Positions 1,018 to 4,925 of a DNA stretch of 11,291 bases are shown piece by piece. Source of the DNA: Hyphomicrobiales bacterium. Lineage in GTDB: Bacteria > Pseudomonadota > Alphaproteobacteria > Rhizobiales > Kaistiaceae. The notes under the pieces were generated by a model. That model saw only the letters and a list, made by a program, of their open reading frames with translations, did no database searches and was not told the DNA's origin. The stretch lies in the NCBI GenBank assembly GCA_017305815.1, contig JAFKJZ010000110.1, positions 1 to 11,291 of the forward strand. Direction: 5' to 3'. The translations under genes and the position numbers were made by a program. How positions within the stretch are numbered: position 1 is the stretch's first letter; each line of letters starts with the position of its first letter.

Positions 1018-2019
1018 TCAGCCCGCCATCGCCTCGTGGATGATGCCCAGCGCCTTGTCGAAGGCCGGCGCGATGCGGCGCGGCTCGGTGCCGGCATCGA
1101 GGCGGAAGGTCGGCGTCGATCCGACGAGCTTCGACAGCATCCGGAACAACTCCTGCTGCGCGCGTGGCACGCCGCCGCCGAGCAGGCCGATATTGTCACT
1201 GAGGATCACGGTAAGCGCGTCGGCCTTGGAAAGGCGCTTCAGGCTCGCTTCGCCTTCCGAGCGCGGACCCACGACCACGACTGCGCCGATCCGGTATCCC
1301 TTCGAGGCATCCGGCAGCGGCAGCAATTCGGCGAGCGCGGCGCGCGTCAGCGGCGCCTCGTCCTCCTCGCCGCCGAAGGCGCCGAGATGCGGCGCGATTT
1401 CGGGGAACATCGCCGCCGTCCGCCGCTGCACCTTCAGCGTGCGCGGCATGCCCCAGCCGAACAGTTCCGCGCCTTCCTGGCGCAGGATGACAACGTCATC
1501 GCCCATATGGCCGTAGCCGCCGAGCGCCAGCGCGAGTGAGGTCGTGGTCTTGCCGAAGCCGCTCGGGGCGAACAGCAGCATGAGTTCGTCGCGCCCGGGA
1601 AGCATCAGCGACGCGGAATGGATCGTCATCAGGCCGTGCCCGCGCAGCGCCATGTCGAGAAGCACCGCGCCCGCCATCGAGCGGAACGGCTGCTCGGCCG
1701 AAGCCGTGACCTGAACCTCGGTCTGTGCGCGGCCGATTTCCTCTGTGATCGAGAGCTTCCCGGGAACGCGGAACTGCTGGCGGTCGCCATTGGCGCTGAT
1801 CTCGGCATAGAGGCCGTCGATCAGCGTGCCGGACCAGATCAACTCGCCCTCGGTGGCGATGTCGTCGCCGGCGGCTTCGCGGACCAGGATTTCGTGCGCG
1901 ACCGGGCCTTCCGCCTGCTCGAAGCCGGCAAGCTGCGGGAAGATCGGCGCGCCCAGTCCCTCGCGCTCGGCGATCACGTTGAAGGCGAGGCCGGGGATGA
2001 CGAAACGGGTCTTGTGCAT
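1018..2019 (-). CDS. HPr-kinase-like protein of a lasso-type RiPP cluster
   Basis: A 333-residue protein. The C-terminal half resembles the HPr kinase/phosphorylase (HprK) fold: a P-loop APSGFGKT at 151-158, a preceding IHSAS phrase with His134 that matches the conserved His upstream of the P-loop in HprK-like proteins, and a Walker-B-like GDDVV starting at 173. The N-terminal ~110 residues are less conserved, as in the stand-alone kinases of lasso clusters. Known relatives phosphorylate serine in lasso precursors (the paeninodin kinase family), so the likely substrate is the small precursor encoded here rather than HPr of the phosphotransferase system. The start is the ATG at 2019-2017, which overlaps the TGA of the upstream B2 gene as TGATG, indicating translational coupling. 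The frame is open to 2229, but that extension lies across the B2 gene and is rejected. It is the last gene of the minus-strand set and converges on tetR. Confidence 0.85.
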   Translation of the reverse strand: MHKTRFVIPGLAFNVIAEREGLGAPIFPQLAGFEQAEGPVAHEILVREAAGDDIATEGELIWSGTLIDGLYAEISANGDRQQFRVPGKLSITEEIGRAQTEVQVTASAEQPFRSMAGAVLLDMALRGHGLMTIHSASLMLPGRDELMLLFAPSGFGKTTTSLALALGGYGHMGDDVVILRQEGAELFGWGMPRTLKVQRRTAAMFPEIAPHLGAFGGEEDEAPLTRAALAELLPLPDASKGYRIGAVVVVGPRSEGEASLKRLSKADALTVILSDNIGLLGGGVPRAQQELFRMLSKLVGSTPTFRLDAGTEPRRIAPAFDKALGIIHEAMAG

Positions 2020-2450
2020 CAGGCGGATCCGGCGCGGTTCTTTTCGATGAAAACCGTCACCATGGATGGTTCCGGCGGATTGAGAAGGGGCTTGTCGTCG
2101 ACGACGACCCAGCAATGGGCGGAGAGCCTGGCGCTGCCGATGCTCTTGCGGTCGACGCCGAAATGCATGGCGGCCGGGATCCCCGCGAGCGTCAGGAAGC
2201 GATAGGCGAGAATGCCCTCGCGCAGGCACCGGCGGTCGCGCATCACCCAGGGGCGCCGTGCCGCGCGCTTGGCGCGGTGGGCTATATAGGCGGGCGCGAG
2301 GCCGCGGTAGCGTCGATCGGCGCCGGCATCGGCGATCTTCATGATGTCGGCGAAATCACGGGACTTTCGGCAGCGGAGCGGCAGGGTGCGGGCCCACAAC
2401 CACATCTCGGCCCGGAACATCGCCCGGCGAAGGACGCTGCCGGATGTCAC
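2019..2450 (-). CDS. Lasso-peptide biosynthesis B2-like leader peptidase (transglutaminase-like)
   Basis: A 143-residue protein of the size of stand-alone B2 proteins (Transglut_core3 family). The Cys-His-Asp catalytic set is visible: Cys75 in RRCLREGILAYRFLTLAGIP, His112 in SAHCWVVVD, and Asp118 six residues after the His. The family phrase is usually AHAWV; here Ala is replaced by Cys113. In lasso systems B2 removes the leader from the precursor together with the leader-binding B1 protein, typically just after a Thr-x pair. Translation begins at a GTG (2450-2448) that overlaps the stop of the PqqD-like gene in a GTGA, and ends in a TGATG overlap with the kinase gene, so the three genes form one coupled unit. 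All predicted catalytic residues are present, so it is probably an active peptidase despite the missing cyclase gene. Confidence 0.88.
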   Translation of the reverse strand: MTSGSVLRRAMFRAEMWLWARTLPLRCRKSRDFADIMKIADAGADRRYRGLAPAYIAHRAKRAARRPWVMRDRRCLREGILAYRFLTLAGIPAAMHFGVDRKSIGSARLSAHCWVVVDDKPLLNPPEPSMVTVFIEKNRAGSA

Positions 2451-2740
2451 TTGTCAACGCGAACGATCAGGCCTTCGGAGGCCAGATGGTTGGCGAGATC
2501 CGACATGTCGTCGCGCAGCATGTCGGCGTCGACGTCGAACACGGTTTCCAGCTCCGTCAGGATGCCGGCGAAATTGCGGGTTCCGTCGACGGTCGACAGG
2601 AAAGCGGCCGTGGTGTCGTTGCAGGTGAAGAGCTGGCCCGACACGGTGTCGAGCAGAACGCCGCCTTCGCCGTCGCCGAGCGGCTGAAAGCTCGTGTTTT
2701 CATGAAGCGCCCAAACGGCGCTCGGCTCAATTCTGGACAC
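2447..2740 (-). CDS. PqqD-family RiPP recognition protein (lasso B1-like)
   Basis: A 97-residue protein with the PqqD fold signature: a beta-rich N-terminal part with GVLLDTVSGQLFTCNDTTAAFL (described at residues 27-48; key features are the Asp-x-x-x-Gly turn and the Asn preceding the first helix), then helices containing the Phe-Asp-Val-Asp segment at 68-71 and a final LASEGLIVRV strand. PqqD-like RiPP recognition elements bind the leader of the precursor and deliver it to the processing enzymes; the stand-alone B1 form pairs with a B2 peptidase, which is the next gene. The start is a GTG at 2740-2738 with a purine-rich AGAGAGAG upstream on the minus strand, a weak Shine-Dalgarno. Its TGA overlaps the B2 GTG by 4 nt. 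It is the first gene of the minus-strand set and is divergent from the precursor gene, 138 bp away. Confidence 0.9.
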   Translation of the reverse strand: MSRIEPSAVWALHENTSFQPLGDGEGGVLLDTVSGQLFTCNDTTAAFLSTVDGTRNFAGILTELETVFDVDADMLRDDMSDLANHLASEGLIVRVDK

Positions 2741-2878
2741 GGGAAGTCTCTCTCTTGGCTGGTGCGAAACGTGGGATAGCCGAACCAGGTGTGCTTGACC
2801 AGAGGTGCGGCTTGCGGTTGGCTAACCGAACGGCGGCTTCGTCCGATCGATTCAAAGATAGTCAGCAGGGAATATGGA
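2741..2878. promoter_or_regulatory. Divergent control region between precursor and B1-B2-kinase genes
   Basis: This 138-bp gap must hold promoters for both directions. Visible elements are a near-exact direct repeat, TAGCCGAAC (2777-2785) and TAACCGAAC (2823-2831), spaced 46 bp, and an inverted repeat CGGTT-GGCT-AACCG (2815-2828) overlapping the second copy. TTGACC at 2795-2800 is a possible plus-strand -35, but no good -10 follows at 16-18 bp. AGGG (2867-2870) is the precursor's Shine-Dalgarno. No promoter can be assigned with confidence. Confidence 0.4.
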
Positions 2879-2971
2879 ATGAAGAAGACGTATGAGAAGC
2901 CCAAATTGCTGAAGCGCGAACGCGTGGCGATGATCGTCGCCGCCACGTCCGGCAATGCGCCGCCTCCGTAG
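2879..2971 (+). CDS. Lasso-type RiPP precursor peptide (30 residues)
   Basis: A 30-residue peptide starting MKKTYEKPKL. It carries the YxxPxL motif (Tyr5, Pro8, Leu10) that lasso B1 proteins recognise in leaders; the Gly often found a few residues later is absent, with KRER at 12-15 instead. A hydrophobic stretch VAMIVAA (16-22) leads to Thr23-Ser24-Gly25. Lasso leaders usually have Thr at the penultimate position, which predicts cleavage between Ser24 and Gly25 and leaves only GNAPPP. That tail has no Asp or Glu and is too short for a lasso ring. The ATG at 2879 has AGGG 8 nt upstream; the same frame is open to 2789, but the extension has no family resemblance and would displace the basic MKK-Y start. 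G/C at third positions is about 83%, supporting real coding. It lies divergent to B1-B2-kinase and upstream of a nucleotidyltransferase. Other cleavage sites are possible. Confidence 0.8.
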   Translation: MKKTYEKPKLLKRERVAMIVAATSGNAPPP

Positions 2972-3035
2972 GCGGATCCCGTTTCGGCTGAGCCGTGCGT
3001 CGTTCGACGCTGGTTGGCCGTCCTGAATATGCAGG

Positions 3036-3075
3036 GGATGATGGGCGGTGCGGAGGCATCGCCCTTTGTTCATCC
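3036..3075 (+). terminator. Terminator-like or attenuator hairpin after the precursor gene
   Basis: GGGCGGTG (3043-3050) pairs with CATCGCCC (3057-3064), eight pairs including one G-U, around a CGGAGG loop, followed by TTTGTT (3065-3070). An outer stem GGATGA (3036-3041) with TCATCC (3070-3075) can extend it, competing with part of the T-run. It lies 65 bp after the precursor stop and 48 bp before the nucleotidyltransferase ATG. It could end most precursor transcripts and let a fraction continue, giving more precursor than enzyme. The T-run is interrupted, so efficiency is uncertain. Confidence 0.45.
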
Positions 3076-3122
3076 GGGCGGCGGTGTCCGTCCAGCTTGT
3101 CTGCCGATGCAATGAGGATTGT

Positions 3123-4181
3123 ATGTCCGCTGTCGATTCCGCTGAGACCGCGCCGCCGCCGGGCGGGACGCCGCGTCGTCTGTCGCGCGCCGATGGCCGC
3201 CTGCTGATCGAACTCGCGGACCCGGAATCGACCCTCGCCCCGATGACGCTCACCCGCGAACGGGCCGGCCTGCTACTGTCGCAGGCCGAGCGGCATGGTG
3301 TGCTTCCCGCGGTTTTGCGCAAGCTTCGGCCGATGCTTTCCAGCACCGAGCTTCGCCCCGTGCGCGACGATTTCGCCGGCCGCTTCGCCAGCGGCATCGC
3401 GTTCAACATGCAGTTGCGCGCCGAGGCGAAGGGGCTGTCGACGGCGCTCCGCGCGGCAGGCCAGCCGGCGCTGCTGATCAAGGGGCATGATTTCGCCGAC
3501 AACATCTATCCGGACCCGGTGCTGCGGCCGACCAGCGACATCGACCTGATCATCCCGGTCGAGAGCCTCGATGCGGTCGAGGCCGTGGTGGCGGCCTCAG
3601 GGTTCGAACTGTGGCCGGACCAGCGCGACGACGAGCAGATGGAGCGCAAGTGGTTCCATGCGGTCCACAAGCGGCTGATGCTGGAGATCCAGGGCAACCT
3701 GGTCCACGCGCCCGGCCTTCGCTCGAAGCTTTCGCTCGGCTTTGCCGAGCTCTGCCCGCATGGCGATCCGGCCGAGGCCGCGCGTTCCTCGACGCGGCTC
3801 GCGATCGCCGGCGTCCACGCTGCGAGCTCGCATCATTTCGAGTTGCTGCGGCTGGTCATCGACGTGCTGCAGGCGGCGCGCCGGCTGCAGGGCGCGGCGG
3901 AGGAACAGGCGCTCGAAGATCTCGTCCGCCGTTCCGGCACGCGCCTGGCGCTGGTCGCCGCGCTCGACCTCGCGGCCGGGCTCTATGACGACCGGCGCTG
4001 CCGGGAGCTCGCGGGCGGGCTGGCTCCGGTGCGCTTCCGCTCGATGTCCAGGCTGCTGATCAGCGGCGACATGGTGATGGCGATGGAGACCGGCGAGCGG
4101 GCGCTGCAATCGTGGCGGCGGTCGCTGTTCCGCGAATTGCTGAAGCGCGGTGAGGGGCGGGCTTCACTTCCCTCGTCATGA
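3123..4181 (+). CDS. NTP_transf_5 family nucleotidyltransferase (RiPP-associated)
   Basis: A 352-residue protein with the signature of the NTP_transf_5 family (PF14907): LLIKGHDFADNIYPDP at 117-132 followed by RPTSDIDLII, where Asp139 and Asp141 form the metal-binding DxD of the nucleotidyltransferase fold; Glu188 in LMLEIQGNL is a candidate third carboxylate. The helical C-terminal half is typical of the family. Members recur in lasso clusters beside an HprK-like kinase; in the pseudomycoidin cluster one is reported to act after phosphorylation and lead to a sugar-decorated peptide. A similar tailoring role is inferred here but the donor is unknown. The ATG at 3123 is chosen because TGAGGA (3113-3118) lies just upstream; the frame is open to 3048 but that stretch includes the terminator-like hairpin. 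The Crp/Fnr gene follows closely on the same strand and may be cotranscribed. Confidence 0.85.
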   Translation: MSAVDSAETAPPPGGTPRRLSRADGRLLIELADPESTLAPMTLTRERAGLLLSQAERHGVLPAVLRKLRPMLSSTELRPVRDDFAGRFASGIAFNMQLRAEAKGLSTALRAAGQPALLIKGHDFADNIYPDPVLRPTSDIDLIIPVESLDAVEAVVAASGFELWPDQRDDEQMERKWFHAVHKRLMLEIQGNLVHAPGLRSKLSLGFAELCPHGDPAEAARSSTRLAIAGVHAASSHHFELLRLVIDVLQAARRLQGAAEEQALEDLVRRSGTRLALVAALDLAAGLYDDRRCRELAGGLAPVRFRSMSRLLISGDMVMAMETGERALQSWRRSLFRELLKRGEGRASLPSS

Positions 4182-4247
4182 GGCGAATTGAATGCTATCC
4201 GTTACACAACGCATCAGGGTAGTACGCAGATCACGACGGAGGGCAGG

Positions 4248-4925
4248 GTGCAGGTCGGCGAGATTGTTTCCTGGCTCGGTCGGACGAGCTTCTTCAACGG
4301 CCTCGAAAAGGAAGATCTGACGCGTCTGGCGCAGATCGCCCGCGTCACGACCTATCCCGCCGATACGGTGCTGTTTTCCCAGGGCGACGAATCGGACGGG
4401 CTCTATTCTGTCGTCGACGGCATCGTGCGCATCTTTCTGACGGCGGACGACAGCCGCGAACTGACGATCCAGCTGTTCGAGGAAGGCGAGGTGATCGGCG
4501 AGATCGCGCTGATCGACGGCCTGCCGCGCAGCGCCGGCGCGGCCACGCTGACGGAGACGAAGCTGATCTTCGTGCCGCGCCAGCCCTTCCTGAACCTGCT
4601 CGACACTTCCAGCCAGCTGCAGCGCCAGATCATCCTGAGCCTCTGCGAGCGGCTCCGCCAGACCAACGAGCAGGTGAACCGCGCCGTGTTCACCGACCTG
4701 CGCCACCGCCTGCTGGTGCTCCTGCGCCAGCTCGCTCTCATCCATGGCCGCATCGAGCGCGATGTCGCCGTGGTCGAGCTGGACCTGACCCAGGGCACGC
4801 TGGCGCAGATGCTGGGCGCGAGCCGCGAGGCCGTGAACAAGCAGATTCGTGCCCTGATCAAGGAAGGCCGCCTCTCGGTCGACGGCCATCGCATCATCGT
4901 GCATCGCTCGATGCGCGATGCCTGA
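4248..4925 (+). CDS. Crp/Fnr-family transcriptional regulator
   Basis: A cyclic-nucleotide-binding domain is followed by a Crp-type winged helix. From the GTG at 4248 the protein has 225 residues. The effector-pocket signature GEIAL...LPRSA is present with Glu85 and Arg94, the positions that hold ribose and phosphate in cAMP-binding members, so a cyclic-nucleotide-like ligand is plausible. There is no N-terminal cysteine cluster, so an Fnr-type iron-sulfur sensor is unlikely. The helix-turn-helix is around residues 180-219 (LAQMLGASREAVNKQIRALI). The start is uncertain: GTG 4248 follows GGAGG by 5 nt, whereas the frame is also open from a TTG at 4188 (245 residues) with a weaker GAGG; the extra codons have lower G/C at third positions, so I prefer 4248. 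It sits between the RiPP genes and the glycogen operon, and its targets are not evident: no clear TGTGA-N6-TCACA or TTGAT-N4-ATCAA site was seen nearby. Confidence 0.9.
   Translation: MQVGEIVSWLGRTSFFNGLEKEDLTRLAQIARVTTYPADTVLFSQGDESDGLYSVVDGIVRIFLTADDSRELTIQLFEEGEVIGEIALIDGLPRSAGAATLTETKLIFVPRQPFLNLLDTSSQLQRQIILSLCERLRQTNEQVNRAVFTDLRHRLLVLLRQLALIHGRIERDVAVVELDLTQGTLAQMLGASREAVNKQIRALIKEGRLSVDGHRIIVHRSMRDA

Follow-up and report, generated by a model that had tools for sequence, protein, structure and literature searches.

The stretch of DNA analysed here (the window) is the 11,291-nucleotide contig JAFKJZ010000110.1 of a Hyphomicrobiales bacterium of the Kaistiaceae, genus Kaistia (GCA_017305815.1), one contig of a host assembly of 719 that is 92% complete and 5.3% contaminated. 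Positions 1018-4181 carry five genes, coding for a PqqD-like recognition protein (B1), a lasso-type leader peptidase (B2), a precursor peptide (A), a kinase (K) and a nucleotidyltransferase-type protein (N), a set that had been proposed in an initial annotation and that was confirmed by family models and open reading frame (ORF) calls. With a probability of around 0.78, we read it as a central maturation locus for short linear phosphorylated RiPPs (ribosomally synthesized and post-translationally modified peptides), in which one B1-B2-K-N machine serves several precursors. This reading is carried by a conserved gene set, no cyclase in Kaistia, the residues of the leader and of the recognition protein, a Ser in the core, and dispersed precursors that co-occur with the enzymes. 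The features of the window are:

1018..2019, minus strand: K, HprK-like putative peptide kinase, 333 aa, its ATG overlapping the B2 stop codon
2019..2450, minus strand: B2, lasso-type leader peptidase, 143 aa, assigned from NF033537 and invariant residues
2447..2740, minus strand: B1, PqqD-like RiPP recognition element (RRE), 97 aa, overlapping the B2 start, assigned from PF05402
2879..2971, plus strand: A, precursor of 30 aa, with leader MKKTYEKPKLLKRERVAMIVA and predicted core ATSGNAPPP (Ser3)
3043..3067, plus strand: hairpin and short T run, terminator- or attenuator-like, between A and N
3123..4181, plus strand: N, NTP_transf_5 nucleotidyltransferase-type protein, 352 aa, assigned from PF14907
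365..970, plus strand: TetR regulator, flank outside the system, found in 14 of 14 Kaistia
4188..4925, plus strand: Crp-like regulator, flank outside the system, on the side of the crp/glycogen operon

In the window the minus strand encodes K, B2 and B1, whose adjoining stop and start codons overlap; A and N are read from the plus strand. The five-gene order is kept in five other Kaistia genomes (G002, G009, G010, G011 and G012), and B2 is absent from eight further ones. In all eight non-carriers TetR adjoins Crp directly, so the flanks are unrelated to the system, as had been supposed; no exporter gene was found between tetR and crp in the window either, in line with the earlier remark that none was obvious. 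For K, B2, B1, A and N all comparisons made point to purifying selection, with dN/dS values of 0.01-0.27 (0.21-0.27 for K). The segment 2985-3075, which encloses the hairpin, folds at -50.1 kcal/mol (z -4.9), and none of 200 shuffles equalled it.

B2 was matched by PF13471 (49 bits, cut-off 26) and by the lasso_biosyn_B2 model NF033537 (55.7 bits, cut-off 33), and its residues C75, H112 and N124 are invariant in 8 of 8 sequences. A second PF13471 match of the host genome (L003) was rejected as a further B2, as it lies beside a portal-like gene (named by eye) and has no NF033537 match. The N protein matched PF14907 at 94 bits (cut-off 31.2), and both K120-G121 and the DxD pair D139-x-D141 are invariant in 25 of 25 sequences. 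With K no Pfam match was obtained at E 0.1, and the protein stays below the NCBIfam cut-off of TIGR04352, HprK-related kinase A of the HPr-rel-A system (23.1 bits against 200). In a profile search with K, HPr kinase structures rank first (8.2e-6), and H134, the P-loop S153-G-x-G-K157-x-T-T with its Lys, and D174-D175 are invariant in 43 of 43 sequences. This is the same His-Lys-Asp-Asp set as that reported for the lasso kinases (PMC9266682). B1 was matched by PF05402 (39.3 bits, cut-off 23.4), and N41 and D78 are kept in all 22 sequences having letters at those positions; their spacing of 37 equals that of N33 and D70, with which LppB holds the YxxP motif of its leader at the Pro kink and the Tyr (PMC13381572). 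B1 appears in this way to carry the recognition residues for gripping a YxxPxL leader. Searches of PDB sequences with N, B1 and B2 gave nothing informative.

The precursor A (MKKTYEKPKLLKRERVAMIVAATSGNAPPP), counted from its Tyr, shows the register Y(-17), P(-14), L(-12) and V(-2) followed by the core ATSGNAPPP, so that the YxxPxL precursor of the initial annotation holds, and the window combines a lasso-type RRE, a B2 peptidase and a YxxPxL leader. The cut site is predicted by analogy with the 17-residue register of BsfA, for which experiments established a cut behind Ile(-2)-x and a phosphate on Ser3 (PMC10368454). A is also present between B1 and N in G002, G009, G010 and G012, and looks degenerate in G011. 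With respect to G002 and G009 it shows 11.5-13 synonymous versus 4-7.5 non-synonymous differences over 30 codons, and this excess, together with the same location in the relatives, indicates that A is not a chance ORF. The core has no acidic residue and thus no acceptor of the lasso type.

The seven window proteins scanned and a cyclase profile search revealed no lasso cyclase in the window, and in the host genome (92% complete) the search yielded just one PF00733 match, weak and partial, that reads as a NAD synthetase; its counterpart in G012 was named NAD synthase by family scan. The locus is then complete without a cyclase, as initially proposed, with the genes for leader recognition, cleavage and tailoring kept. 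As a positive control, the lasso B2 model was run against 387 alphaproteobacterial genomes and matched 38 of them, at 46 places. A PF00733 match was found within 15 kb at 33 of the 45 B2 places outside the window, a count in which one case is doubtful (G124, at 10.9 kb, 3.7e-54) and from which most PF00733 matches stronger than about 1e-50 are left out, lying on other contigs or far away. Cyclase-profile matches also adjoin two additional B2 genes (G438 and G223).

The initial annotation had also considered that a cyclase encoded elsewhere in the genome could act in trans to make a lasso peptide. For Kaistia this finds no support and was rejected, because five of the six carriers, including the single-contig genome G011, have no full-length PF00733 protein: G002, G009, G011 and G012 show partial matches only, and among eleven partial-match ORFs that were read the six scanned were named argininosuccinate synthase, MnmA or NAD synthase; the remaining five have starts that resemble those of these six. 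K. adipata (G010) does have a full-length match, on another contig, and outside Kaistia, in a survey of 36 of the host genomes of the 80 listed loci described below, a full-length PF00733 protein is encoded somewhere in 30 and nowhere in the other six, among the matches listed. In M. ciceri a complete lasso cluster lies 27 kb away (L119:6600-12519), and in M. amorphae a cyclase-profile match (L120:6965-8896), known from the profile match alone, lies at a similar distance from the cyclase-free cluster. The M. ciceri cyclase (NF033535, 794.7 bits) was discarded as a partner, since it is part of another, lasso-type cluster that has a precursor (with D9 and ending in GGGGSTAIDASFPAHTPIGDLTFS), a B1, a B2 and an ABC transporter of its own. 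In M. ciceri at least, a lasso and a cyclase-free system occur side by side, each with its own enzymes. The region of this lasso cluster also has polysaccharide-type genes, named by eye. Taking into account as well the short cores analysed below, the supply of a cyclase in trans seems very improbable to us.

When genome contigs were scanned with the B2 alignment, at least 80 loci were obtained, mostly of Mesorhizobium but also of Hoeflea, Aquibium, Chelativorans, Roseovarius, Prosthecomicrobium, Hyphomicrobiaceae and Rhodospirillaceae, and two of the listed ones come from metagenome-assembled genomes (MAGs) labelled Planctomycetes. B1, B2, K and N occur together in 79 of the 80 listed loci, within the stretches of DNA analysed. 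A profile built from 18 lasso cyclases matched nothing in the window or in the Kaistia loci, and over the 80 listed loci it gave one match only, an asparagine-synthetase-like gene around 1.5 kb from B1 in L101. Its product was named asparagine synthase and rejected as a lasso cyclase, with 352.6 bits for TIGR01536 (above 267.1) and 197.2 for NF033535 (below 525), although the 525-bit cut-off alone is indecisive because the accepted lasso-type cyclases L157 and L166 also score below it. The protein nevertheless starts with MSG, not with MCG, the start in which AsnB has its Cys at position 2. In this Roseovarius MAG (L101:6325-9519) the asparagine-synthetase-like gene and a Mur-ligase-like gene lie beside B1.

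In a tree of 70 B2 proteins, built from few alignment columns after thinning loci more than 80% identical, the 39 cyclase-free rows (including L115, a B2 without the other genes of the set) form one group, apart from the lasso B2s, in 98% of 200 bootstrap trees (support 98/98). This single clade, together with the four genes shared by 79 loci, argues against a recent cyclase loss, and the earlier idea that macrolactam formation was abandoned locally gives way to that of one widespread clade with its own precursor type.

As 43 of the 80 listed loci have no strict local precursor, with looser ones in at least L097, L107, L108 and L114, the genomes were searched in full with the precursor alignment. 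Among 16 genomes (limit 0.05), precursors were found in 15 of 15 carriers, with best E values of 4.3e-8 or lower, and not in the non-carrier G003; among 41 genomes (limit 0.001), G003 again included, all four carriers had them and none of the 37 non-carriers did. Overall, 19 of 19 carriers and 0 of 37 non-carriers have precursors; of a separate set of 37 genomes having other, mostly true lasso, B2 genes, none gave a precursor. The host genome carries an array of four precursors on contig C546, one of them with the core GCAGSDCK, between a sugar-kinase-like and an adenine-deaminase-like gene (named by eye), and arrays lie between the same pair of genes in G002, G009 and G011. In Mesorhizobium the dispersed precursors appear as single copies or arrays, also in genomes without a strict local one (G080, G067, G071 and G077); a second contig of M. 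ciceri has a match by model score alone. Weak matches of the host genome on C555, and on C360, where the pattern found no precursor, were left out of the counts. We infer from the co-occurrence that precursor genes away from the enzymes are processed in trans by the same machine. The single-precursor picture of the initial annotation is right in that the local A is real, but it did not include the scattered precursors, the cores of around 10 aa, the core Ser or the Bacillota counterpart treated below. As a separate observation, L102 has ten precursor copies with differing cores in a single locus.

The dispersed copies bear also on the idea that the locus is a decaying lasso relic. In G011 (Kaistia sp. 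32K) the local precursor region (L035:8704-9175) looks degenerate, as a relic would, but the same genome retains an array (L216) of six open-frame copies around 1.27 Mb from its cluster. With the clade widespread and the dN/dS values described above in all five genes, decay is scarcely credible.

The cores of 122 unique precursors (69 local and 53 dispersed) were then analysed. Their length is 5-26 residues with a median of 10, and all of them contain Ser or Thr. Ser is present in 115 of the 122, against 76% expected from composition, and none of 5000 shuffles reached this value, although the shuffles ignore relatedness among precursors and the search model covers part of the core. In 109 of the 122 the Ser is at core position 3-6. 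An acid at core positions 7-9 is found in only 11, and in 3 when combined with the length of at least 14 residues that lasso cores require. Ordinary lasso peptides are thus unlikely products of these cores, judging from their composition and size.

In the mechanism that we propose, B1 would grip the YxxPxL leader, K would phosphorylate a core Ser, N would decorate the phosphate with a sugar or nucleotidyl group, and B2 would cut 17 residues past the motif start, the Tyr counted, after residue -1. The released product would be a linear peptide with these modifications, in most cases 5-16 residues long, and the same enzymes would act in trans on the single or arrayed precursors located elsewhere in the genome. 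As a cyclase is missing and most cores lack an acceptor acid, no ring would be formed. The phosphorylation step has its precedents in BsfK (PMC10368454) and LppK (PMC13381572), both of which phosphorylate a core Ser3. The step of N is the least certain, since in pseudomycoidin the phospho-Ser receives one or two hexoses from PsmN (PMC9266682), while no effect of LppN was detected in the host used to test it (PMC13381572).

Apart from this result with LppN, the cyclase-like proteins found in carrier genomes and the many loci without a strict local precursor, several points weigh against the maturation of linear phosphopeptides. The resemblance of K to HprK is distant. The genomes G015 and G016 gave local precursors only. 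Seven of the 122 cores have Thr and no Ser, and the position of the Ser varies, so the target may not be a single fixed Ser. The conservation of the leader residues is in part by construction, because the collection pattern fixed the Tyr, the Pro, a hydrophobic residue, a basic residue at -10 and the residue kinds at -2 and -1. Finally, both the peptide product and its function are predicted from the genes.

The lack of effect of LppN, and the fact that the additional tailoring genes differ among loci, would also fit with a cleavage-only peptide system, for instance for a signal, made by B1, B2 and the precursors, with K and N serving another substrate. However, K and N accompany B1 and B2 in 79 of the 80 listed loci and have invariant residues of catalytic type, Ser is above chance in the cores, and relatives of both K and N modify peptides (PMC10368454, PMC9266682, PMC13381572), so we regard this possibility as unlikely.

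The closest known systems to the proposed linear phosphopeptides are the linear polyphosphorylated peptides (LPP), relatives of lasso peptides with a linear, kinase-modified product that, according to their authors, occur only in Bacillota (PMC13381572, published May 2026). As in LPP, there are a discrete RRE with an Asn/Asp pair for YxxP, an HprK-like kinase and a NTP transferase, and no cyclase; the core Ser as target and the linear product would also be shared, as suggested here by the residues of K and the core Ser statistics, and LPP too are often found in genomes that make lasso peptides. By contrast, LPP have a SpI-like signal peptidase where a lasso B2 is found here (no SpI-like peptidase turned up in a scan of seven proteins of the window, and no search for SpI was made outside them), an MsbA-like exporter in the cluster, where none lies between tetR and crp, and a core of 45 aa in the studied case versus a median of 10. 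The LPP leader YxxPxVLxHQxIxFETxxS does not fit that of the window (YEKPKLLKRERVAMIVA), and the hosts are here mostly alphaproteobacteria, plus the two loci from Planctomycetes-labelled MAGs, with dispersed precursors. The gene set is therefore shared, but the peptidase, exporter, leader consensus and core size are not, and we set the system apart as a variant rather than as a member of the LPP family. What looks new with respect to LPP, as far as the genes tell, is the lasso B2 peptidase, the far shorter cores and the dispersed precursors.

The phosphorylated lasso peptides bsf (PMC10368454), paeninodin and pseudomycoidin (PMC9266682) also have a kinase, with or without nucleotidyltransferase, and are B1-guided and B2-cut. 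BsfA shares with the precursors described here Y(-17), P(-14), L(-12) and Ile/Val at -2, and its target is Ser3 (PMC10368454). Those systems, however, encode a cyclase C together with lasso cores, an ABC transporter is also present in bsf (PMC10368454, PMC9266682), and the paeninodin-type kinases target a C-terminal Ser (PMC9266682). The conserved leader and variable core recall the prochlorosins (ProcM/SyncM, PMC10783134), an analogy of organisation only, as their enzyme and lanthionine chemistry are unrelated. In the open literature searched we recognised no description of an alphaproteobacterial cyclase-free system. If the proposal is right, lasso recognition and cleavage enzymes serve ring-free peptides beyond Bacillota, and mining keyed on the cyclase or on a neighbouring precursor would overlook scattered short-core precursors. 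According to the RRE-Finder paper, peptidase and cyclase accompany only around 4,000 of the almost 8,000 discrete lasso-type RRE hits, and the cyclase-free clade may account for part of the remaining ones. The cyclase-free setting also makes N accessible to test on a simple linear phosphopeptide.

Further genes were seen beside K and N in the neighbourhoods, where gene calls are crude and genes without a Pfam or NCBIfam check were named by eye. AMP-ligase, GNAT acetyltransferase and carrier-protein genes appear in varying sets in L103:11710-13942 and also in L057, L094, L101, L102 and L107, hinting at acyl or aminoacyl tailoring. A formyltransferase-domain gene adjoins N in L108:2994-3941 and L114:12502-13440 (by Pfam), and in L110, L116 and others (by tblastn). 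The variation of these sets suggests lineage-specific tailoring. More tentatively, and as a possibility that we put forward with reserve, the whole could form a genome-wide combinatorial system, in which scattered micro-precursors would yield linear peptides, mostly of 5-16 residues, with a phosphodiester-linked sugar or nucleotide on Ser and lineage-specific formyl or acyl tailoring; such conjugates would be comparable in size to microcin C. In a Rhodospirillaceae MAG (L110:7969-9981), in what may be a gene-call artefact, B1 seems to be fused to a long N-terminal extension that matches no Pfam family.

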